DNA of 34,135 bases from an uncultured Planctomycetaceae bacterium (GTDB lineage: Bacteria > Planctomycetota > Planctomycetia > Planctomycetales > Planctomycetaceae), in assembly GCA_903896675.1 (NCBI GenBank), contig CAITYU010000173.1, positions 1-34,135 on the forward strand. The letters are read 5' to 3'. Positions within the stretch are counted from its first letter, which is position 1. Each line of letters starts with the position of its first letter. The position numbers and the translations under genes are program-made. The notes under the pieces were generated by a model. That model saw nothing but the letters and a program-made list of their open reading frames with translations, had not been told where the DNA came from and did not search any database. This document shows, in pieces, positions 2,123 through 26,645 of this stretch.

Positions 2123-3886
2123 ATGAAGACGATCTGGACCTGCTGCATACTGGTGTTGCTCAGTACAGTCACCACGGCCCCGCTCAGGGCCCAGACAGCC
2201 GATCAGCAACTGGAAACATTCTTCAGGAATCATCTGGAAGAGTGTTTCAGAATGCGTCCGCTGGAAGCAACGATGCTGGGGGACCACCGGTTTGACGATC
2301 AGCTCGACGATATCTCTGCAGAAGCCCGGCAGCGCTGGCTGCAGCACTACCGCAGCCAGTTGCAGCAGCTCCAGCAGCAGATTCCGCGGCAGCAACTGAC
2401 TCGCAGTGGCCAGGTGGACTACGAAATCCTGCGGGACGAACTGGTTCGCAGTATCTGGCTGGCTGAGCATACTCGTCCCTTTGAAGAAGACCCGCGCACC
2501 TACGGCAGTTACATCAGCGACAGCGTTTATTCGCTGCTGGTGCAGTCCACACTGCCGCGGGAAACAAATGTTCGCAACGCGATTGCCCGCATCCGTCAGA
2601 TTCCCCGCATCGTTCGCACGGCTCGTGAAACGCTGCGAGACTCACCACCCACCATTCTGGAAACTGCCATACTGCAGAATCGCGGTGCGATCGGGTTTTA
2701 CGAAAAGGGCATCTACGAATTAATCGGGGCTTCGGCTCAGTTGGACGACCTGCGCGCTGCGGCAGCCCCCGCCCTGCAGGCACTGCGTGAACATCAGACA
2801 TTTCTGGAGGACAGTCGTCGCCTGCGGGCCAATGGAAACTGGCGTCTGGGTCCCGACCTGTTTGCCGAAAAGCTGCAACTGGTGCTGAACGCCGGCGTGT
2901 CTGCTCAGCAGGTCCTCGCGGATGCGGAAGCGGAATTCCTGCGAGTACAGGACGAACTGTATGTGGTCTCACGACAGCTTTGGAGCCGTTATTTTCCGCA
3001 GTCGGTCCTGCCACCTGACGATGCCGCAGGTCGCCGCGAGACAGTGACGAAGGTGATCGCAGCGGTCAGCCAGGAACACGGGGCCCCGGAAACGCTGGTT
3101 GCCGACGCTCGGTCCTCCGTCGGTCAGATTCAGGATTTCATTCGGCGTCAGGACATTCTGAGACTGCCGGATCCCGATCGCTGTCAGGTCATTGAGATGC
3201 CGGAATTTCGCCGTGGAAATTCGCTGGCCTACCTGGATCCGGCACTGCCGCTTGATCCGGGTGGAATCAGTTCGTATGCCGTCAGTCCGCCACCGGCAGA
3301 CTGGGGTTCCGAGCGCGTCCGCAGTTTTCTGGAAGAGTACAATTCGCACATGCTGCAGGTGCTGACGATCCACGAAGCGTATCCGGGACATTACGTGCAA
3401 CTGGAATATTCAAATCGCTGCCCGTCACTCATTCGTCGCGTGCTGCAGTCGGGTGTCTTCATCGAAGGCTGGGCCGTTTACACCGAACAGATGATGCTGG
3501 ATCAGGGGTATGGTGAAGGCAGCCTGCAGCTGCGCCTGAATCAGTTGAAGTTCTACCTGCGTGCTGTTGTGAATGCGATTCTGGATCATCGCATGCACTG
3601 CACTGAGATGACGGATGAGCAGGCGCTGGAACTGCTGACCGTGCAGGCCTATCAGTCCGAGGGCGAAGCGCGGCTGAAGGTGATTCGAGCCAAGCAGAGT
3701 TCAACACAACTGAGCACCTACTTCACCGGACGCATGGCACATTACCGCCTGCGTCAGGAGATTCAGCGCGAGCAGGGTCCGGCATTCAGCCTTGGGCGAT
3801 ATCACGAAGCCGTGCTGGATCACGGTTCCGTACCCATGAAGTACCTGCCCGAACTGGTGCGGGAAAGACTGCAGAAGCCGCGGTAG
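2123..3886 (+). CDS. Secreted DUF885-family metallopeptidase-like protein
   Basis: This 587-residue protein belongs to the DUF885 family, whose members look like zinc peptidases although few have been tested. The metal-binding signature HEAYPGH is at residues 417-423. The downstream EGWAVYTE segment (glutamate at 448) fits the third zinc ligand of gluzincin-like enzymes. The N-terminus (MKTIWTCCILVLLSTVTTAP) reads as a signal peptide, with cleavage likely after LRAQ, so the protein probably acts in the periplasm or outside. The ATG at 2123 was chosen because TGGAGA lies 6 bases upstream and it places the signal peptide at the true N-terminus; the frame stays open upstream to 2018, but that part only re-reads the CPBP gene. 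The family assignment is secure; the substrate is unknown. Confidence 0.88.
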   Translation: MKTIWTCCILVLLSTVTTAPLRAQTADQQLETFFRNHLEECFRMRPLEATMLGDHRFDDQLDDISAEARQRWLQHYRSQLQQLQQQIPRQQLTRSGQVDYEILRDELVRSIWLAEHTRPFEEDPRTYGSYISDSVYSLLVQSTLPRETNVRNAIARIRQIPRIVRTARETLRDSPPTILETAILQNRGAIGFYEKGIYELIGASAQLDDLRAAAAPALQALREHQTFLEDSRRLRANGNWRLGPDLFAEKLQLVLNAGVSAQQVLADAEAEFLRVQDELYVVSRQLWSRYFPQSVLPPDDAAGRRETVTKVIAAVSQEHGAPETLVADARSSVGQIQDFIRRQDILRLPDPDRCQVIEMPEFRRGNSLAYLDPALPLDPGGISSYAVSPPPADWGSERVRSFLEEYNSHMLQVLTIHEAYPGHYVQLEYSNRCPSLIRRVLQSGVFIEGWAVYTEQMMLDQGYGEGSLQLRLNQLKFYLRAVVNAILDHRMHCTEMTDEQALELLTVQAYQSEGEARLKVIRAKQSSTQLSTYFTGRMAHYRLRQEIQREQGPAFSLGRYHEAVLDHGSVPMKYLPELVRERLQKPR

Positions 3887-4027: not shown

Positions 4028-4142
4028 GAGCCGGTAAACCTGGGAGGGCGAGGCTCCCGCCGAGCCGGTATACCCTGGGAGGGCGAGGCTCCTGCCGAGC
4101 CAGTATACCCTGGTAGGGCGAGGCTCCTGCCGAGCCGGACGT
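4028..4142. repeat. Tandem 35-base G-rich repeat, three units
   Basis: Three near-identical units with a period of exactly 35 bases start at 4041, 4076 and 4111. Each begins TGGGAGGGCGAGGCTC (TGGTAGGG in the third), continues into a GAGCC half that pairs with the GGCTC just before it, and ends in a GTATACCC-like spacer. The same core recurs near 13250-13630 and 25910-25987. Short reading frames across it yield a GSAGASPSQ-type peptide, which is a repeat artefact and not a gene. Confidence 0.9.
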
Positions 4143-4254
4143 CAGTGTTCAGTAATCGCAAAGTCCCCCCCGTTTGGGAGGAGGGAGGTTCCTGCTGAGC
4201 GTGGGATACATTGGCGTGCCGAGCTGTTCGGCTCAGCAGGAGCTTCGCCCTCCC
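4143..4254. repeat. Inverted pair of the dispersed repeat plus a 68-base-unit remnant
   Basis: Bases 4143-4170 (TCAGTGTTCAGTAATCGCAA and following) are the reverse complement of the tail of the 68-base unit found near 13450-13620. They lead into a diverged repeat core at about 4176-4200. A second copy in the opposite orientation (GGCTCAGCAGGAGCTTCGCC onward) occupies 4230-4254. The two cores can fold back on each other, with mismatches, around a loop of about 30 bases. Confidence 0.75.
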
Positions 4255-4798: not shown

Positions 4799-6475
4799 TC
4801 AGCGATTCTGCGAGGCAACCGCCTTTTCGATTTCATCCAGCATCTGGGCCCGCCGGAAAGGCTTGTACAGCACCGCGCGCAGGCCTTCCTGGCGAGCCTT
4901 GACGATCGAATGCGTCGAATCGTAACCGAAACTGGTCATCATGATGATCGGAACGGCCGTATTGATCTCCCGCAGTCGCCGGAAACATTCGTAACCGTTC
5001 GCGTCACTGAGCCGAATGTCTATCAGCACCACGTCATACGCATGGTTCCGCAGCATCGAACAGGCCTCGCCGGCCGTCGTGACTGCGTCCACCTCACACC
5101 CCATCTGCTCCAGCAGCGTGTGGGCTTCTTCACGAGTCCTCGCGTCTTCATCCGTCACCAGCACGCGGCGATTCCGCAACGCTGATCGAGGCGGACGCGG
5201 AATCGCCGGGCTGCTGAGCCCCGGACTGGCATCCAGCCCCACCACCGCACCCACGTCGAGGCGGATCTTGCGGACCTTGCGAGTAATCACGTCAAGACGG
5301 TCGGCAAGATCCGGATCGTGCCCGACATATCGATCCAGAATCCACGTCGCCGCTTTCAGAATCTCATCCGAAGGCTCGGCCACCTCACGTCGCAGTCGAT
5401 CGGCATTCTCCGTAGTGACCGTCGCCTTTTCTGCTTCCAGCAACTGTAACTGGTTCAGCGAACTGGCCACCACTCGACCGAACAGCACCAGAAACTCCAG
5501 ATCCTTCTCACTGAAGGACTTTGTCCCCGGACCCTCCACGTTGAAAGTGCCCAGCAGAACGTCCCGGATCATCAGCGGCACTGTCAGTGAGCTTCGCGCA
5601 TCGGCTGCACCACACAGATACAACTGGTCCGATTTGGTGTCCACACACAGATAACTGCGCTTGCTCCACGCGACAAAACCCGTCACACCGTTGCCATTGG
5701 CTTCCGCATACAACCGACGGCTGGCAGCCTCCGGGGCCATGCCGAATTCCAGCAGCGGCTGAAGCTCGTTCGTTTCAGTATTCAGCAGGCGAATCTCGAA
5801 GCGATCGTAGCCCAGTACCTCCTGAGTCAACTGCAGGATCTGCTCCTTGAGGATGGCGACACGCTCATCCGGAGTCATGCCGGTCACTTCGTCCGGAGAC
5901 AGATTGCCCAGCTCAAGACCGGCGCGATAAATCGCATCCTGCTTCTGTTTTTCATGAATCAGGGCCGTCACATCACGAACTGTCAGAATCACCGCGCACT
6001 GCTTGCCATCACCCAGATTGATCGGACGGCGGGACAGTCGCAGTGACAGCACCGTGCGGTTTTCACGACGCACCTGCAGTTCGACCGCACCACCATTCGT
6101 CGGCATGGCGACACGAGTCAGATCGGTGCCGTCCATCGGTGCAATCACGTCCTGCAGCGGACAACCCACCAGCCGCACCGCAGGCTCAGACTGCAGAATG
6201 GTCTGAAACGTCTGATTGTGCCACAGCACCGTCAAGGCATCGTCCAGCAGGACCACAGCGTCGGGCAGCGCATGAAACACCCCCAAGGCACCAACCTGCA
6301 CGTCCGATAACTGCTGCGGCTCGCAGCCGGCCACCAGCACGTAGTCAGCCACCGCGTCCGGAACGTGAACGTCACCGGCACGCACGACATCCACAGGGTC
6401 GTCCGCCAGCGAGAAATGCGGGATCGATTCAGATCCGCGTCCAAACACCAGCATGCGTTTACGTTGGCCGGTCAT
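4799..6475 (-). CDS. PAS-GAF-receiver signalling protein without a kinase domain
   Basis: This is a cytoplasmic multidomain sensor-regulator of about 558 residues. After a variable N-terminal part come a PAS-like domain (ALPDAVVLLDDALTVLWHNQ, ending in VILTVRDVT), a GAF domain (around VLGYDRFEIRLL to ASSLNQLQLLE), a helical linker, and a C-terminal receiver domain. The receiver has the acceptor aspartate at 486 (VVLIDIRLSD) and the conserved lysine at 538 (LYKPF). The linker lies where a histidine kinase dimerisation helix would be, but there is no phosphorylatable histidine motif and no ATPase N or G box. A full kinase is therefore absent, and a partner kinase is an inference. The ATG at 6475 was chosen because GGGGA lies 8 bases upstream; the frame extends to a TTG at 6499 with no visible ribosome site. 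Confidence 0.85.
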   Translation of the reverse strand: MTGQRKRMLVFGRGSESIPHFSLADDPVDVVRAGDVHVPDAVADYVLVAGCEPQQLSDVQVGALGVFHALPDAVVLLDDALTVLWHNQTFQTILQSEPAVRLVGCPLQDVIAPMDGTDLTRVAMPTNGGAVELQVRRENRTVLSLRLSRRPINLGDGKQCAVILTVRDVTALIHEKQKQDAIYRAGLELGNLSPDEVTGMTPDERVAILKEQILQLTQEVLGYDRFEIRLLNTETNELQPLLEFGMAPEAASRRLYAEANGNGVTGFVAWSKRSYLCVDTKSDQLYLCGAADARSSLTVPLMIRDVLLGTFNVEGPGTKSFSEKDLEFLVLFGRVVASSLNQLQLLEAEKATVTTENADRLRREVAEPSDEILKAATWILDRYVGHDPDLADRLDVITRKVRKIRLDVGAVVGLDASPGLSSPAIPRPPRSALRNRRVLVTDEDARTREEAHTLLEQMGCEVDAVTTAGEACSMLRNHAYDVVLIDIRLSDANGYECFRRLREINTAVPIIMMTSFGYDSTHSIVKARQEGLRAVLYKPFRRAQMLDEIEKAVASQNR

Positions 6476-6627
6476 TGTGCGCATCCCCGATTTATGCAAT
6501 TGGTTGATCAGGCTGAATTCTGCACTGCCTTTGCCGGGCTGGCAAGAAGGTTTCCGCCACGGAATTGCCCGATTATCACCGAATCCTTAACTGAGAAATC
6601 AAGAACCGGCAGACTTTTCCACCCCGT

Positions 6628-11532: not shown

Positions 11533-12951
11533 CTACCTGGTAAGATCGTATTCCTTGATCTTCCGATACAGCGTCCGCTCTCCAATGTCCAGCATTCGTG
11601 ACGCCTCTTCACGATTACCGTCCGCCAGATCCAGCGCCCGCTGAATGTAATACTTCTCAACCTCTGTCATCGGCTTGCCAATCAGTGCATCAGCGCCAGT
11701 CGGAGCATCCACGTCGGGCTCCGGAAGCTGATCACGCACCAGAACCGCAATCTCAGGCGGCAAACCGTCAATGTCCAGGATTCCGTCCGAATCCAGCACC
11801 AGCATACGCTCTATCACATTTCGCAGCTGACGGATATTGCCCGGCCAGTGATAGGCCAGCAGGGCCTTGCGAGCTGCCCGGGAAAAACCCTGCACCTCAC
11901 GTCCCATCCGCCGCGACATCTCTCGCAGAAAATGCTCCATCAACAGCGGTATGTCACCCTGACGCTCACGCAGCGGCGGCAGAAAAATACTGACAACATT
12001 CAGACGATAGTACAGGTCTTCACGAAATTTGCCGTCCGCCACGTTCTTCTGCAGATCCGCATTTGTCGCTGCTACCAGCCGCACATTGATTGATAACTCG
12101 TCGTTGGCGCCAAGGCGAGTAATCCGGCGGTCCTCAAGCACGCGCAGCAGCTTCACCTGCGTGTCCAAAGGCATCTCACCCACTTCGTCCAGAAACAAAG
12201 TGCCCCCGTTCGCGTGCTCAAACTTGCCGATCCGCCGCCCCTGAGCACCCGTAAAGGCACCCGCCTCATGACCAAACAACTCGCTCTCAAGAATACTGTC
12301 CGGCAATGCAGAGATGTTCAACGGTACGAACGGCTTGTTCTTCCGCGGACTGTTCTGGTGCAAAGCACGAGCCACCAGCTCTTTGCCAGTGCCGTTCTCT
12401 CCCTGAATCAGCACCGTAATGTCCGTCGGTGCCACGTTCTTCAGTATCTCGACGATCGCATGCATCTGAGGACTTGTGCCAATCACACCCTCGAAGCCAA
12501 AACGCTCGTCCAGCGACCGACGCAGCTCTGCGTTGCGACGAATCAGACGCAGACGAGCCGATGCTTTTTCCACAGCCGATCGCAGCTCGGTAATGTCCAG
12601 TGGCTTCGTCAGATAAGTGTAGGCCCCGTGCTGCATCGCCGTCACAGCCGAATGAATCGACCCGTGACCCGTCAGCACAATCACCTCAGCCTCTGGCAGC
12701 TCTTCCTTCGCAATCCGCAGAATCTCCAGACCGTCCACGTCCTCCATACGCAGATCCGTGACAATCACGTCCCACGATTCCGCATGAATCAGCTGCACAC
12801 CACGCTCGCCCGATCCCGCCACCCGACAGTCACAGTTGATCCGCTCCAGAGCCTCAGCCACGGCCTGCGCATGACCTTCGTCGTCGTCCACAATCAGGAC
12901 GCGAATCGGGATGGTGGAAAGATCGGATGAATCTTGCTTGAGGTCAGCCAT
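11533..12951 (-). CDS. NtrC-family sigma-54-dependent response regulator
   Basis: This 472-residue transcription activator has the classic three-part layout. The receiver domain (about 14-130) has acceptor D66 in VIVTDLRM and lysine K116 in LTKPLD. The AAA+ domain has Walker A GENGTGKE (184-191), the sigma-54-contacting GAFTGA loop (231-236) and Walker [11 protein letters not shown]. The Fis-type helix-turn-helix at the end reads [20 protein letters not shown]. All key residues are present, so it should be activated by phosphorylation and drive sigma-54 promoters. No partner histidine kinase lies next to it. It heads a tight minus-strand run with a glycosyltransferase, priA and a decarboxylase. 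The ATG at 12951 starts just before the receiver domain. Confidence 0.95.
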
Positions 12952-13246: not shown

Positions 13247-13417
13247 CTTGGGAGGGCGAAGTCCCGCTGAGCCGAACACCTGCCACGCCACTCGCTCACC
13301 ACTCGGGAGCGCGAAGCCACCGCTGAGCCGAACACCTGCCAAGCCACTCGCTCACCACTCGGGAGGGCGAAGCTCCCGCTGAGCCGAACACCTGCCAAGC
13401 CACTGGACGTCCACGGC
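13247..13417. repeat. Forward array of the dispersed repeat, three units
   Basis: Repeat cores begin at 13251 (GGAGGGCGAA), 13306 (GGAGCGCGAA) and 13362 (GGAGGGCGAA), a period of 55-56 bases. Each core leads into CGCTGAGCCGAACACCTGCC, then AAGCCACTCGCTCACCACTC. This is the same core as at 4041-4142 and 25910-25935, with a different spacer. The unit to the right switches orientation. Confidence 0.9.
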
Positions 13418-13640
13418 TCGTCAGGAGCCTCGCCCTTCCGGATGGGGACTTTGCGATTACTGAACACTGAACACTGACGTCCGACTCGGCAGGAGCCTCG
13501 CCCTCCCGGATGGGGATTTTGCAATTACTGAACACTGAACTCTGACGTCCGGCTCGGCAGGAGCCTCGCCCTCCCGGATGGGGACTTTGCGATTACTGAA
13601 CACTGAACACTGAGCACTGACGTCCGGCGGCAGCCTCACC
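13411..13640. repeat. Inverted-orientation array, 68-base units, running into the thiC stop codon
   Basis: Three units have AGGAGCCTCGCC at 13423, 13491 and 13559, a period of exactly 68 bases. Each continues CTCCCGGATGGGGACTTTGC, then GATTACTGAACACTGAACAC, then TGACGTCCG. The ACACTGA stretches are heptamers. A decayed fourth copy (CGTCCGGCGGCAGCCTCACC) covers 13621-13640 and supplies the thiC stop codon. Peptides such as KVPIREGEAPAEP from this array are artefacts of the repeat. Confidence 0.9.
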
Positions 13641-15456
13641 CGCCCAGGGCCGGTGGTGTCGCCGCCCCGTTCAACTGCACCAACTGAATCTTCCTCGCGT
13701 CCTCGCTGTCCACATAGTCGCTGTGGCAGTTGGCTTTCCCCGCATCAGCACCCACCGTGCGACGCGTCTTGCTGGCCAGACGATGAATGTCCTCCGGAGA
13801 CAACACTCCGCGTTTCTCCAGAATCTCCTGCTGCTCAGACGTCAGCGCCGCTGAGACCTTTGCCTTCTCCCACTGCAGATGTTCGGCCTTGCCACTGGCA
13901 AACAACTGGATCTCCTTGCTGATTCGCACACTGCACCAGTCATGGCCACACATCGCACAGAAGTCCGTATCGACGTCCAGATCCTCGTCGTGATAGGCCC
14001 GGGCTGTGTCCGGGTCAAAACTGAGTTCAAAGTGTCGCTCCCAGTTGAGCGCCGCACGGGCTCGAGTCAGCTCGTCGTCGCGATCCCGACTGCCCGGAAT
14101 CCCCAGAGCCACGTCAGCCGCATGCGCCGCAATCTTGTAGGCAATGCAGCCCTGCTTCACGTCATCCTTCTTGGGCAGCCCGAGGTGTTCCTTGGGAGTC
14201 ACGTAGCACAGCATGCTGGCTCCGTGCCACGCCGCACTGGTCGCTCCGATACAACTGGTGATATGGTCGTACCCGGGGAACATATCCGTCACCAGTGGGC
14301 CCAGCACGTAAAACGGAGCCCCATGACACAGGCGACGCTGCAGTTTCATGTTGAATTCGATCTGATCCAGTGGCACATGCCCTGGCCCCTCGATCATCAC
14401 CTGCACACCCATCCGCCACGCCCGCTCTGTCAGTTCCCCCAGCGTCGACAATTCGGCCAACTGAGCAGCATCGGTGGCATCCGCCAGACCACCCGGGCGC
14501 AGGCCATCCCCGATGCTGAATGTCACATCGTGACGACGCAGAACTTCGCAGATGGCTTCCCAGTGCGTATACATCAGATTCTGAGCATCGTGCTGGATCA
14601 TCCACTTGGCCAGCAGTGAACCGCCACGACTGACAATGCCGATCAGGCGGTCCTTCACCAGCGGCAGATGCTCCTGCAGAACCCCCGCATGAATCGTGAA
14701 ATAGTCCACACCCTGCTGAGCCTGATGCTCCAGAGTTTCCAGCACGATTTCAATGTTCAGTTGCTCGATCCGCCGACCAATGATCATCGAATAGATCGGC
14801 ACAGTGCCGATGGGGACAGTGCTGTTCCGAATAATCGCGTCCCGGCAGGCATCCAGATCACCACCGGTGGACAGATCCATGACCGTGTCAGCGCCCCACC
14901 GCTCCGCCCAGCGCAGCTTCTCAACCTCTTCGTCCGTTCCCGAAGACACCGGCGATGCACCCATGTTGGCGTTGATCTTGGTCCGCGATGCCCGACCAAT
15001 GCACATCGGGTCAAGCTGATACTGCAGGTGCTGGCGGTTGGCCGGAATCACCATGCGCCCGGCGGCCACTTCATCCCGGACCTGCAGGGCTGTCAGATGC
15101 GGTTCCCGCTCAGCCACCCGCTGCATCTGCGGAGTGATCACGCCCAGTCGAGCAAATTCCAGTTGAGTGCACGGCTGAAATCCCGCCGGTGCCTGCCACG
15201 CCTCAGGACGCTCATAATCCGCCTCAAAACCCGGCCGCAGTGACCAGTCCTGTGGCATGAAATCCCACGCCGTTTTCTCGGAAGGAGCCGGCATGCCGGG
15301 AGTGTCGGGGGAGGCATAGGTCAGAGCACCGGCCCGACCGGATGAAATCCGCGGTGCCCGGGAAAAGCTGCCCGGAGTGGTTCCGGCAGGCTGGCTGGCC
15401 GGGCTGGAAGCTTCAATCTGAGGCAGATATCCGGCGGCTCGTTCAGCGTGATTCAT
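13636..15456 (-). CDS. thiC: Phosphomethylpyrimidine synthase (HMP-P synthase)
   Basis: ThiC is a radical-SAM enzyme that rearranges 5-aminoimidazole ribotide into the thiamine pyrimidine HMP-P. The 606-residue sequence carries the non-canonical iron-sulphur motif CxxCxxxxC as CAMCGHDWC (C500, C503, C508), the ThiC-associated N-terminal domain ([20 protein letters not shown]), [32 protein letters not shown] and [14 protein letters not shown]. It is full length. The ATG at 15456 begins 5 residues before variable N-terminal sequence. No TPP riboswitch was recognised upstream, although a small hairpin is present. The stop codon falls inside a decayed copy of the dispersed repeat. It diverges from folC. 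Confidence 0.97.
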
Positions 15457-22609: not shown

Positions 22610-23542
22610 ATGAAAGTCCTGCTTGCCAACCCTCGCGGCTTCTGTGCCGGTGTCAACATGGCCATCGAATGCCTTGAAGAAGCCATTCGCCGTGTCGGCC
22701 CCAACATCTACGTATACCACGAGATTGTCCATAACAAACATGTGGTCGATCGATTCACGAAGCTGGGAGTCAGGTTTGTCGATTCCCCGGATGAGGTTCC
22801 CCCGGGGTCCATCCTGCTGTTCAGTGCCCACGGGGTCAGTCCCGAAATTCGCAGGCTGGCTCGTGAACGCAGCCTGCAGACCGTTGATGCCACCTGCCCG
22901 CTGGTGACCAAAGTGCACCTGGAAGCCATCCGTTATGCCAACGACGGCTACAACATCATCCTGATCGGACATGACGGTCACGACGAGGTGATCGGGACCA
23001 TGGGGGAAGCTCCTGAGAGCATTACTCTGGTGGAAACGCCTGAGGAGGTGGACAATCTGCCGTTCAGCCCCGCTGATCGACTGGCTTACCTGACTCAGAC
23101 CACGCTCAGTGTGGACGAGGCTGGTGCGGTCATTGATGCACTCAAACGACGATTCCCGCACATCGAACACCCCAAAAAGGAAGACATCTGCTACGCCACG
23201 ACAAATCGTCAGGAAGCGGTCAAGACGCTGATTGGCCGAGCCGACCTGTTGCTGGTTCTGGGCAGTCAGAACAGCTCAAACAGTCGTCGACTGATGGAAA
23301 TCGGGCTGAATTGTGGCATCGGAGCCCATTTGATTGACGGTGTTGGGGAGATTCAGGACCAGTGGTTTTCCGGAGTGGAAACGGTCGTCGTCACAGCCGG
23401 CGCCAGTGCTCCGGAGATCGTTGTGCAGGAGTGCATTCAGTTGCTTCAGCAGAAGTACGGTGCGGAGGTGCAGGAGGTCACCCTGCGTGAGGAGCACGTG
23501 CATTTTGCATTGCCCAAAGAGCTGCTGCAGTTGGGAAACTGA
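22610..23542 (+). CDS. ispH: 4-hydroxy-3-methylbut-2-enyl diphosphate reductase (LytB)
   Basis: IspH is the last enzyme of the MEP isoprenoid pathway, making IPP and DMAPP on an iron-sulphur cluster. The 310-residue product carries all three cluster cysteines: C12 (ANPRGFCAGV), C96 (DATCPLVTKVH) and C194 (DICYATTNRQ). The substrate-binding segments VYHEIVHNKHVV, SAHGVSPEIR, HDGHDEV, TQTTLSVDE, SQNSSNSRRL and AGASAPEIV are also present. Length is standard. The ribosome site is weak (GAAGGG some 12 bases upstream of the ATG at 22610). It is the last gene in the serC run. Confidence 0.97.
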   Translation: MKVLLANPRGFCAGVNMAIECLEEAIRRVGPNIYVYHEIVHNKHVVDRFTKLGVRFVDSPDEVPPGSILLFSAHGVSPEIRRLARERSLQTVDATCPLVTKVHLEAIRYANDGYNIILIGHDGHDEVIGTMGEAPESITLVETPEEVDNLPFSPADRLAYLTQTTLSVDEAGAVIDALKRRFPHIEHPKKEDICYATTNRQEAVKTLIGRADLLLVLGSQNSSNSRRLMEIGLNCGIGAHLIDGVGEIQDQWFSGVETVVVTAGASAPEIVVQECIQLLQQKYGAEVQEVTLREEHVHFALPKELLQLGN

Positions 23543-23723: not shown

Positions 23724-23798
23724 GGTGGCTATAGCTCAGTTGGTTAGAGCGCCAGATTGTGGTTCTGGAAGTCGCCGGTTCGAACCCGGTTAGCCACC
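23724..23798 (+). tRNA. tRNA-His (anticodon GTG)
   Basis: The sequence folds as a standard cloverleaf. The acceptor GTGGCTA pairs with TAGCCAC, a G sits at position -1 opposite C73 as expected for histidine tRNA, and the D arm reads AGCTCAGTTGGTTAGAGC. The anticodon stem CCAGA/TCTGG encloses a loop with GTG, and the T arm has GGTTCGAACC. The CCA end is not fully encoded (CCAT follows C72). A promoter precedes it and a strong hairpin follows. Confidence 0.96.
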
Positions 23799-23802
23799 CA
23801 TC

Positions 23803-24046: not shown

Positions 24047-25714
24047 TCATGGGACAGCGGACAGCAGCAGACTGTAGCTGCTCCGAACCCCCAGCACTGA
24101 CTGAACCGTCGCAAGGTCGGACTCCAGCCCCTGCTGATCCGAAATGGCCACAACGAAATTCTGCGAATCGCCGACGCGCGACACGCGAATGCAGTAGTTG
24201 CCCGACTTCAACTGAGGGGAGGTCAGGCGTGCGGAATTGCCTGAGCTACCGAACACATCAATGGTGACTCTGCCGGCAGATTCCATCGCGAATCGATACC
24301 AGTCAATTGATTCAGCGTGCAGACTGCCGGCAATTCTCAAGCCTCCTGCAGCCACCTCCGACGACTGGGCAGGCTGCGCGGCAGCAGATGGAACTGTCAC
24401 CGTTCCGACGTTCGCTCCTGACGTTCGCCGATTGTTGGGTTCTGCGTCGAAGTACCCGGCAGGGGTCAACTGGGTTTCAAGTCGATAACTCGATTGAGCT
24501 CGCCCGTAACTGAAAACCCTGATGAAGTACTCGCCGGCTGCCAGATTCTGCAGACTGATTTGCTCGCCGGTCACCCCACCGCTCGATGACGACCTCACGA
24601 CTTTGCCGTTGCTGTTCAGAATTTCCAGATCCAGATCTTCCGCAAGTCCGCTGAGCCCCACCGTCATCGCACTGCCAGCTCCGGCATTCACCTGATACCA
24701 GTCCTGACGATCCGCACCGAACAGGCTGCCTGTCAGCGATACACTCTCACCCGGAGGCAGATTGTCCAGCAATTCAGCCTGGCCAGCATCATCATTGATC
24801 TGTGAATCCCGACCCACTGCCGGCACGCTTCTGAGGATCGCCAGACTGTACAGGGAACCCTGACGCCTGAACCGGTGCACCCTGACGTAATAGGTGCCCG
24901 GCAGTAATTGCTCCAGTCGAATCTGCTCGCCTGCAGTCCCACCCTGGTCGGAAACCGCCAGTGTTCGCCCCTGTTCGTCCTGAATCTCAAGATCCAGATC
25001 CTGCGTGTGTTCGGTCAAACTGACTGTCACAGTGCCACCTGCCGGCATGGATACCTGGTACCAATCCTGCTGATCAGACTTGAAAAGCCCGCCGTGCAGC
25101 ACAGTCGGCACGTCCGTGGAAATTTCACCTGCGCTCACGGCAAGTAAACGACTGTCATTCGGCTCACTGTCACCTGTCCGTACTGCAGTTCCGGAAGCCG
25201 TGCTTTTAGTGCCGCTGAATGTGGCCGTGTACACACTGCGAGTTTTCGGAGATTCAGAATAGATACGGATGAAATACGTCCCTGCAGCAAGATTCCGCAA
25301 CTGGATCCGCTCTGGCGTTGTACCCGTATTGACACCTGTTCCCAGAACTTGCCCCCGCGTATCGCGTACCTGCACATTCAAATCGTCGCGCAGCCCCTTC
25401 AGTTCGACAGTGCCACTGCTGATGGGTTCAGTCAGATCAAGCCGGAAAACATCCTGAGTGTCCAGCGGACCTCTGCAGACTCCCTGGAACCGGCTTGTCA
25501 ACTCTCTGTTTGTACTGACGACAGACACAAGATCCGCCGCTGCCAGCGAATCATTCGGCTCGGTCTCAAATCCCCCGGGCGTAACGAACGTCATCAACTG
25601 CCGTGACTCAAGGCAGTCTGCGTTACGGCCAAAGTCACCTCTGCGATTGCGACGACGTGGCCGTTCAAACGTACGGCCAATTCCCGCACAGATCAATTCA
25701 AAAAGTGTCATCAC
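24047..25714 (-). CDS. Exported protein with repeated PPC domains and LEPR-XLL-like N-terminus
   Basis: This 555-residue protein is built from about four beta-sandwich modules of the PPC type (bacterial pre-peptidase C-terminal domain). Typical signatures repeat: EPNDSLAAAD or EPNDSRLLA at module starts, DQQDWYQV or DRQDWYQV, DLDLEIQDEQG or DLDLEILNSNG, and AAGTYFIRI, PGTYYVRV or AAGEYFIRV. No protease domain is visible. The N-terminus lacks an ordinary signal peptide. It has an arginine-rich stretch (RPRRRNRRG) followed by CLESRQLMT near residues 34-42, resembling the planctomycete LEPR-XLL motif, so export to the cell surface is inferred. It is a paralogue of the gene at 26711-29341. ATG codons at 25714 and 25711 are both possible. 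Confidence 0.85.
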   Translation of the reverse strand: MMTLFELICAGIGRTFERPRRRNRRGDFGRNADCLESRQLMTFVTPGGFETEPNDSLAAADLVSVVSTNRELTSRFQGVCRGPLDTQDVFRLDLTEPISSGTVELKGLRDDLNVQVRDTRGQVLGTGVNTGTTPERIQLRNLAAGTYFIRIYSESPKTRSVYTATFSGTKSTASGTAVRTGDSEPNDSRLLAVSAGEISTDVPTVLHGGLFKSDQQDWYQVSMPAGGTVTVSLTEHTQDLDLEIQDEQGRTLAVSDQGGTAGEQIRLEQLLPGTYYVRVHRFRRQGSLYSLAILRSVPAVGRDSQINDDAGQAELLDNLPPGESVSLTGSLFGADRQDWYQVNAGAGSAMTVGLSGLAEDLDLEILNSNGKVVRSSSSGGVTGEQISLQNLAAGEYFIRVFSYGRAQSSYRLETQLTPAGYFDAEPNNRRTSGANVGTVTVPSAAAQPAQSSEVAAGGLRIAGSLHAESIDWYRFAMESAGRVTIDVFGSSGNSARLTSPQLKSGNYCIRVSRVGDSQNFVVAISDQQGLESDLATVQSVLGVRSSYSLLLSAVP

Positions 25715-25909: not shown

Positions 25910-25987
25910 GGGAGGGCGAAGCTCCTGCTGAGCCGAATCCCTGTCAGTCCGCTGGATCGTCCGGCTCGGCAGGAGCCTCGCCCTCCC
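25910..25987. repeat. Inverted pair of the dispersed repeat (26-base arms)
   Basis: The left arm (25910-25935) starts GGGAGGGCGAAGCTCC; the right arm (25962-25987) ends GAGCCTCGCCCTCCC. The arms match at 24 of 26 positions, and both differences still allow G-U pairs on one strand. The loop is 26 bases. The flank CCCAGGGTTTACCGG on the right resembles the spacer at 4031-4045. This is the cleanest hairpin of the family in the window. Confidence 0.92.
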
Positions 25988-26082: not shown

Positions 26083-26112
26083 AAAAAAAATCACCCGCAT
26101 TTCTGCGGGTGA
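26083..26112 (-). terminator. Intrinsic terminator of the small secreted-protein gene
   Basis: On the minus strand a perfect 9-pair stem (TCACCCGCA, loop GAAA, TGCGGGTGA) is followed directly by eight T. It lies 38 bases after the stop codon at 26151. This is a textbook Rho-independent terminator and probably ends the transcript of the 29341-26151 pair. Confidence 0.93.
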
Positions 26113-26150
26113 CCTCGACGATCGATTCTGCAGCCAGACGTTCCTGCCTG

Positions 26151-26645
26151 CTACTGCATCTGGTTCAGGAATTGAAATCGTACATCGCTGTTGTAATGCT
26201 GATTGTATGAGTTCCACAGGTGCTGGTTGACAGAAGTCCCCGCAGCCCCTGCTGGAATCGTCGGGGACGTCGGCTGCCACGATGAAGCCGCAGATGACGC
26301 CGCCGAAAATCCCTGTCCCAGACCACTGACCACCGCTGCCAGTGTCTGCAACCGCCTGATCCGCTGATCCGCCGCCTGCTGCACAGTGATCCCCTTACGG
26401 TCTGCCTCCCGAACGTCCTTCTCATAAGTCCGCTCCACACGCCTCGTCTGCAGCCGATTCAATGGCCTGTTGGCAGGATTGTACACATGCTGCAGATGCC
26501 GTGGCACAACTGAGGATGTGGCTGACGAGTTACCACTCGAGCGACTGGCTGCTGCTCGTCGACCAAACAACTGGGCATCAGCGGTGCTGCACACACAAAC
26601 GGTCAGAATCAGAGCAGCAGCCTGAGCTGTTACGTTTCGAAACAT
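26151..26645 (-). CDS. Small secreted protein of unknown function
   Basis: I do not recognise this 164-residue protein. It starts with a clear signal peptide (MFRNVTAQAAALILTVCVCS, cleavage likely after ADA), followed by a serine-rich segment. Next is a basic helical region around 58-100 (RLQTRRVERTYEKDVREADR, then KGITVQQAADQRIRRLQTLA). A low-complexity Gly/Ala/Ser/Pro stretch follows, and the end is Asn/Gln-rich (NQHLWNSYNQHYNSD). The ATG at 26645 has AAGGAG 8 bases upstream, one of the best ribosome sites in the window. It lies 65 bases after the large PPC gene and ends with a strong terminator, so the two may be cotranscribed. Confidence 0.8.
   Translation of the reverse strand: MFRNVTAQAAALILTVCVCSTADAQLFGRRAAASRSSGNSSATSSVVPRHLQHVYNPANRPLNRLQTRRVERTYEKDVREADRKGITVQQAADQRIRRLQTLAAVVSGLGQGFSAASSAASSWQPTSPTIPAGAAGTSVNQHLWNSYNQHYNSDVRFQFLNQMQ

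Follow-up and report, generated by a model that had tools for sequence, protein, structure and literature searches.

The stretch of DNA analysed here (the window, 34,135 nucleotides from an uncultured Planctomycetaceae bacterium) carries at three places copies of one short palindromic sequence, which raises the question of what kind of element this is and what copies or keeps it. A pattern search with the core consensus [C/T]GGGAGGGCGARGCTCCYGCYGAGCCG retrieved 11 window copies with at most 3 mismatches, whereas no core was found at this cut-off in dinucleotide-preserving shuffles of the window (n=100). The covariance model recovered 12 cores at E≤0.015, including an extra one at 13250–13274 that is one base short, and a marginal 13th at 4176 (Table 1). 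The repeat family of the original prediction is thus real at all three loci (12 clear cores, none by chance). The first locus was said to begin at 4028, but its first full core lies at 4042 and positions 4028–4041 are a mere 3' remnant of a copy. The cores occur on both strands and their positions bear out the proposed periods: 35 bases (cores 4042, 4077 and 4112), 55 and 56 bases (13250, 13305 and 13361) and 68 bases (13414, 13482 and 13550). The claim of a fixed core with variable spacing is therefore supported. Heptamer-like repeats, ACTGAACACTGAACACTGA and TTCAGTATTCAGTG, occupy gaps between 68-bp-spaced cores (window 4140–4160 and 13455–13625; locus L176, 7770–7940).

All window cores are intergenic, as predicted and as the neighbouring genes confirm. 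The stretch 4042–4254 is flanked by two gene 3' ends, those of a DUF885 gene (ending at 3886) and of a sensor/response-regulator gene (4799–6499, minus strand). The stretch 13250–13575 lies immediately downstream of thiC (13636–15456, minus) and upstream of a sigma-54 activator gene (11533–12951, minus), and the isolated doublet at 25910–25987, which has no T tract, separates the minus-strand genes 24047–25714 and 26151–26645. A terminator-like hairpin with a T run, distinct from this doublet, follows gene 26151–26645 at 26087–26116 (minus). Elsewhere in the window a tRNA-His (GTG anticodon; 23725–23799, plus) adjoins ORF 22610–23542, whose start, MKVLLANPRGFCAGV, is like that of IspH.

Table 1. 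Cores and associated features in the window.
Feature	Position	Strand	Basis
Core, G:C type, exact	4042–4067	+	pattern, covariance model
Core, 1 mismatch, 35 bp past 4042 core	4077–4102	+	pattern, covariance model
Core, tag GTAG replacing GGAG, 35 bp past 4077 core	4112–4137	+	pattern, covariance model
Degenerate marginal core	4176–4201	+	covariance model, E 0.81
Exact core of A:T type, opposite in orientation to 4042/4077/4112 cores	4229–4254	-	pattern, covariance model
Core with 1-base deletion	13250–13274	+	covariance model, E 2.6e-4
Degraded core, 3 mismatches	13305–13330	+	pattern, covariance model
Core, A:T type, exact	13361–13386	+	pattern, covariance model
Core, 2 mismatches, inward pair with 13361 core	13414–13439	-	pattern, covariance model
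Core, 1 mismatch, 68-bp period	13482–13507	-	pattern, covariance model
Core, G:C type, exact, 68-bp period	13550–13575	-	pattern, covariance model
Left core, A:T type, of isolated inward doublet	25910–25935	+	pattern, covariance model
Doublet spacer (26 nt), related to other spacers of own genome	25936–25961	+	spacer comparison
Right core, G:C type, of doublet; whole 78 bp = one hairpin	25962–25987	-	pattern, fold, covariance model

Hairpin capacity had also been predicted, and each single core indeed folds by itself, while the doublet 25910–25987 forms one long hairpin. RNA and DNA parameters agree on the single-core fold, .....(((..(((....)))..)))., which consists of a 5-nt tail (GGGAG), a GGC/GCC stem, a GA/GA internal loop (2x2), a 3-bp upper stem and a TCCY loop. 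Read on the other strand, GA/GA would become TC/TC, which gives the signal a polarity. The constant tag is GGAG, placed directly at the stem foot, position 1 being T in one clade of a second phylum; a tail-loop pair between G1 and Y17 was dropped, as that clade has T at position 1. GGAG was found in 380 of 413 hairpins and GTAG in 2, a share inflated by the retrieval of most loci with a GGAG-containing pattern. Neither GTAG (or GT[AG]G) nor CGTC is thus the tag at the hairpin foot. Per-site conservation of the core is likewise inflated, copies having been found by core similarity, while the absence of conservation just outside the core is unaffected. Rfam gave no match at the gathering threshold apart from a tRNA, and its weak miRNA-precursor matches to the doublet were set aside as generic hairpin noise.

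Compensation was examined by reading the upper stem freely with the other core positions fixed, which gave 408 distinct cores in the loci examined. The upper stem is fully Watson-Crick in 388 of them, with seven triplet types and covariation of all three pairs, as against 238 paired on average and 263 at maximum with shuffled partners. Where the 5' triplet is other than GGC (106 cores), the matching 3' triplet is present in 94 and GCC is retained in 6. Sequence kinship inflates these compensation counts, but the types GCC, CGC, GCG, ACC and ACG stem from different genomes. Mutual information reaches 0.62 for pair 11:20 and 0.13 for pair 12:19, and is at most 0.046 elsewhere; a hand-picked set of slid controls fails to show compensation. 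The GA/GA loop stays invariant while the upper stem varies.

In the own draft genome (5.89 Mb, 589 contigs) 474 cores were counted within 3 mismatches (270 + 204), and the core pattern read backwards had no match. This is the high copy number of a short palindromic hairpin expected of a REP, and a far cry from the few copies that would have spoken against the prediction. The intergenic bias also extends beyond the window: with a simple codon-usage gene caller, 1 of 127 cores fell in called CDS across 458 kb (82% coding), and the corresponding count for five genomes together (G000, G065, G379, G361 and G050; 77–86% coding) is 2 of 198. The bias is weaker in G575, of the second phylum, with 11 of 31 cores in called genes (89% coding). 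The loci were selected for containing cores, which leaves the comparison of genes with intergenic sequence within a locus unaffected. Position relative to 3' ends, another of the checks proposed, showed that gene 3' ends and convergent gaps are preferred: gaps between convergent genes hold 16 of 61 sites (8.6 expected, p 0.009) and gaps between divergent genes 5 of 61 (16 expected from intergenic bases, p 0.0003).

Rare copies lie inside genes. At L193 an exact 78-bp doublet (1501–1578) lies within a helicase-like frame that stays open, and a homologue (38% identity) has a gap at the doublet position. L064 (550–632) and L136 (7647) hold orthologous exonuclease-like genes with 68% protein identity that carry the peptide REGEAPAEP at the same site, where the third base is the same in 9 of 9 codons, compared with 57% at identical residues gene-wide. 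In this one case the codon match points to the DNA sequence, and not the protein, as what is constrained or homogenised. The in-gene doublets of all three loci keep their frames open and add peptides such as EGEAPAEP...GSAGASPS.

The 276 sites in the loci examined comprise 119 plain inward doublets, 105 single cores, 37 arrays of at least three cores and 15 tandem pairs. Neighbours no more than 200 bp apart face inward in 151 cases and outward in 8, and the inverted doublet is the main unit, as in REPINs. Within a genome the spacers are related to each other (those of the own genome measure 26 nt); between genomes they differ, and some are as short as 0–8 nt. The outer flanks are partly common to the copies of one genome in some cases (G065) and without relation in others (G379). 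Doublets of the own genome usually combine one A:T-type with one G:C-type core, in which the pairing of each core is kept and the arm-to-arm pairing is lost. Such mismatched arms argue that cores are recognised singly and not as parts of a perfect terminal inverted repeat. At 79 isolated doublets flanking direct repeats were not in excess and no target duplication was seen, and the loci examined contained no empty site. Larger imperfect palindromes (score at least 9) enclose 21 of 76 isolated doublets (1.7 expected); the enclosing sequences are unrelated (L202, L114, L104, L128, L165, L087, L112, L023 and L199) and several are repeated in their own genome. The doublets may have inserted into hairpin loops or been captured by MITEs.

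The distribution of the core is patchy. Copies range from 0 to 525 per genome within the genus, and in an even sample of Planctomycetota the core is present in 12 of 343 genomes, mostly of the own family. Among the matches listed, labels with the core include Phycisphaerae (another Planctomycetota class), Armatimonadetes/Chthonomonas, Hydrogenedentota, Acidobacteria, Chloroflexi, Zixibacteria and Deltaproteobacteria; these labels come from the records, mostly of MAGs, and GTDB membership was checked for one, the phylum of G060. The named genomes of this label scan hold 21 to 284 copies each. A near-identical core occurs in 31 of 291 genomes of G060's GTDB phylum, to which the genomes labelled Armatimonadetes (G062 and G063) belong and no genome of the Planctomycetota sample does. 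The copies of G065 are spread over about a hundred contigs and have a variant of their own (...GAGCCT), which argues against stray contigs. From this distribution we infer horizontal spread of the core family. Plasmid and phage collections gave no core match, and in IMG/VR 11 stretches contain the core, so that viral spread is not indicated.

The window holds no RAYT-type transposase, as had been noted from its sequence, and the proposed search of the genome had a mixed outcome. At E≤0.001, Y1_Tnp (PF01797) had no match in the own genome and G007, which have the most copies in the genus, nor in G060 (284 copies, a MAG), where no Y1 appeared even at E 10. At a weaker threshold, long divergent HUH proteins were detected in G000, G007 and G008; in the own genome, a weaker cut-off and a family profile gave three long divergent RAYT-like matches. 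Against the NCBIfam REP-associated tyrosine transposase model these proteins reach E 6e-7 and 6e-9, below the model cut-off, and they carry invariant N-H-x-H and Y-x-D-L-N motifs; the PF01797 negative must therefore not be read as a lack of RAYT relatives. Members of this HUH family of 350–450 aa, under the Pfam and NCBIfam Y1/RAYT cut-offs, are encoded at L327 (1321–2502, plus), L322 (691–2037, minus) and L323 (1258–2427, plus). The family is present in 18 of 18 sampled genomes of the genus, three core-less ones included, and absent from the complete genome G379 (138 copies), G032 (97) and G065; no cores flank its genes or lie nearby. The Spearman coefficient of core number with this family is 0.59, but 0.42 within the genus (p 0.08). 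As a candidate mobiliser this family (A1) was rejected, being common in core-less relatives and missing from several core-rich genomes.

Linkage to Y1 genes was equally absent where it was sought. The first 30 Y1 loci inspected contain no core, and 11 cores were observed near 60 Y1 genes of 14 core-rich genomes against 15.6 expected, figures that rest on a subset of Y1 genes and on drafts that may lack short contigs. Core number does not follow Y1_Tnp number (Spearman 0.13, p 0.44, 37 genomes), and a negative for G575 with a Y1 profile built from just 5 sequences carries little weight. Neither mark of a REPtron is therefore seen: no cognate RAYT flanked by repeats at the Y1 loci inspected, and no repeat number that follows RAYT presence. 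A RAYT link through PF01797 was abandoned after the own genome, relatives, 25 label-diverse genomes and the phylum sample gave none. Comparison of all ORFs of 148 loci with one another returned large diverse families only, with no high-identity neighbour recurring beside cores. No parent IS ending in cores was found either; the loci examined contain four inward pairs 200–3500 bp apart, and the one checked encloses an ordinary gene. The family behaves like a REP/REPIN, and the REP/BIME reading originally put forward stands for behaviour, fixed core, variable spacing and intergenic site; tag, compensated stem and occurrence in more than one phylum had escaped that first reading. As a member of the GTAG REP/RAYT system the family fails on two features, the tag and the linked RAYT.

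We favour, with moderate confidence, a dispersed non-autonomous REP/REPIN-like family whose core is a strand-specific hairpin signal copied in trans. A trans-acting enzyme would recognise the folded single-stranded core and copy the signal, mainly as inward-facing doublets, into intergenic spaces without target duplication. The likeliest candidate is a RAYT-family (HUH/Y1) protein whose gene lies elsewhere in the genome or was formerly present. This reading is weakened by the absence of a transposase linked to cores at the Y1 loci inspected, by a core number that does not track Y1 number, by the high-copy genome G060 with no Y1 match, by the failure to find an empty site in the loci examined and by the tag GGAG in place of GTAG. 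A GGAG-tagged family of REP-like hairpins across several phyla, propagated or maintained by a trans-acting factor which these phyla share and which lies outside the known RAYTs, is put forward more tentatively. We think it rather unlikely that the hairpin is moved or kept by a non-RAYT factor, such as a nuclease or recombinase of unknown type, or a nucleoid or RNA-binding protein that several phyla have conserved. The missing Y1 linkage and correlation (with no Y1 match whatever in G060), the conservation of the core at the DNA level within a coding gene and the departure of the tag from GT[AG]G would agree with such a factor, as would the CGTC REPs of the literature, which likewise have no dedicated transposase (PMC3733652). 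However, tag, mismatch-interrupted stem, strand asymmetry and doublets together are the layout on which RAYTs act, the variation from 0 to 525 copies in one genus is more in keeping with a mobile element than with a host function, and RAYT loss after spreading is known.

The bias towards gene 3' ends and convergent gaps would also be expected of host signals that are under selection for a function and not copied, such as transcription terminators, stabilisers of mRNA 3' ends or DNA-uptake sequences. This explanation is improbable: most relatives have no core (12 of the 343 sampled phylum genomes do), the doublet 25910–25987 lacks a T tract and a separate terminator is found at 26116–26087, and a terminator needs no strong primary-sequence conservation. 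Uptake sequences tend to be shorter, to occur in far greater numbers and to be common within genes. Least probable are classical MITEs, with the doublet as the terminal inverted repeats of a DDE-transposase element, since inward-facing doublets and the quarter of isolated doublets in larger imperfect palindromes, some repeated within their own genome, are outweighed by absent target duplications, spacers down to 0–8 nt, within-core pairing kept at the expense of arm-to-arm pairing and the failure to find, in the loci examined, any longer parent element that ends in cores.

REP families have been characterised as bound to a transposase of their own and as largely confined to related species. 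Here the core is nearly letter-for-letter the same across two phyla and its upper stem alone co-varies, which offers a natural mutational scan of the recognising factor's target. This factor would be expected in genomes rich in the core (Planctomycetota, Armatimonadota and others) but not in their core-free sisters. Through the elements, recurrent peptides (EGEAPAEP, GSAGASPS) enter translated frames, and carrier genomes may be harder to assemble and annotate; none of the papers searched contained the core strings or the peptides.

Among known systems, the group-2 REPs of E. coli combine a tetranucleotide with an imperfect palindrome with conserved mismatches and are processed as ssDNA by TnpAREP (PMC8266576). 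The present family resembles these REPs and BIMEs in its tetranucleotide 5' of a mismatch-interrupted imperfect palindrome (PMC8266576), in its inverted pairs and tandem arrays, in the pairing of A:T and G:C sub-types and in its hundreds of intergenic copies; the conserved stem mismatches, which TnpAREP requires in group-2 REPs, correspond to the GA/GA loop, as judged from fold and sequence. It differs in having GGAG instead of GTAG, in that no REP-flanked RAYT was found and in a core near-identical in two phyla, whereas every tnpAREP has been reported to come with a REP family specific to it (PMC6006769). Tagged hairpins, doublets, positions downstream of genes and occasional intragenic copies are shared with the GTAG- and CGTC-tagged repeats, from which the family is set apart by a tag that is neither; tagged REPs have been reported from Planctomycetes, and CGTC types have no dedicated transposase (PMC3733652). 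In REPINs (PMC3116915), the inverted REP doublet is the basic mobile unit, a likeness with the doublets described above, and REPINs are studied with RAYTs within genomes, whereas the present family is without a RAYT link. Finally, like the Rickettsia palindromic elements, the palindrome is able to sit in frame in protein genes, although here it rarely does so and 26 bp are conserved.
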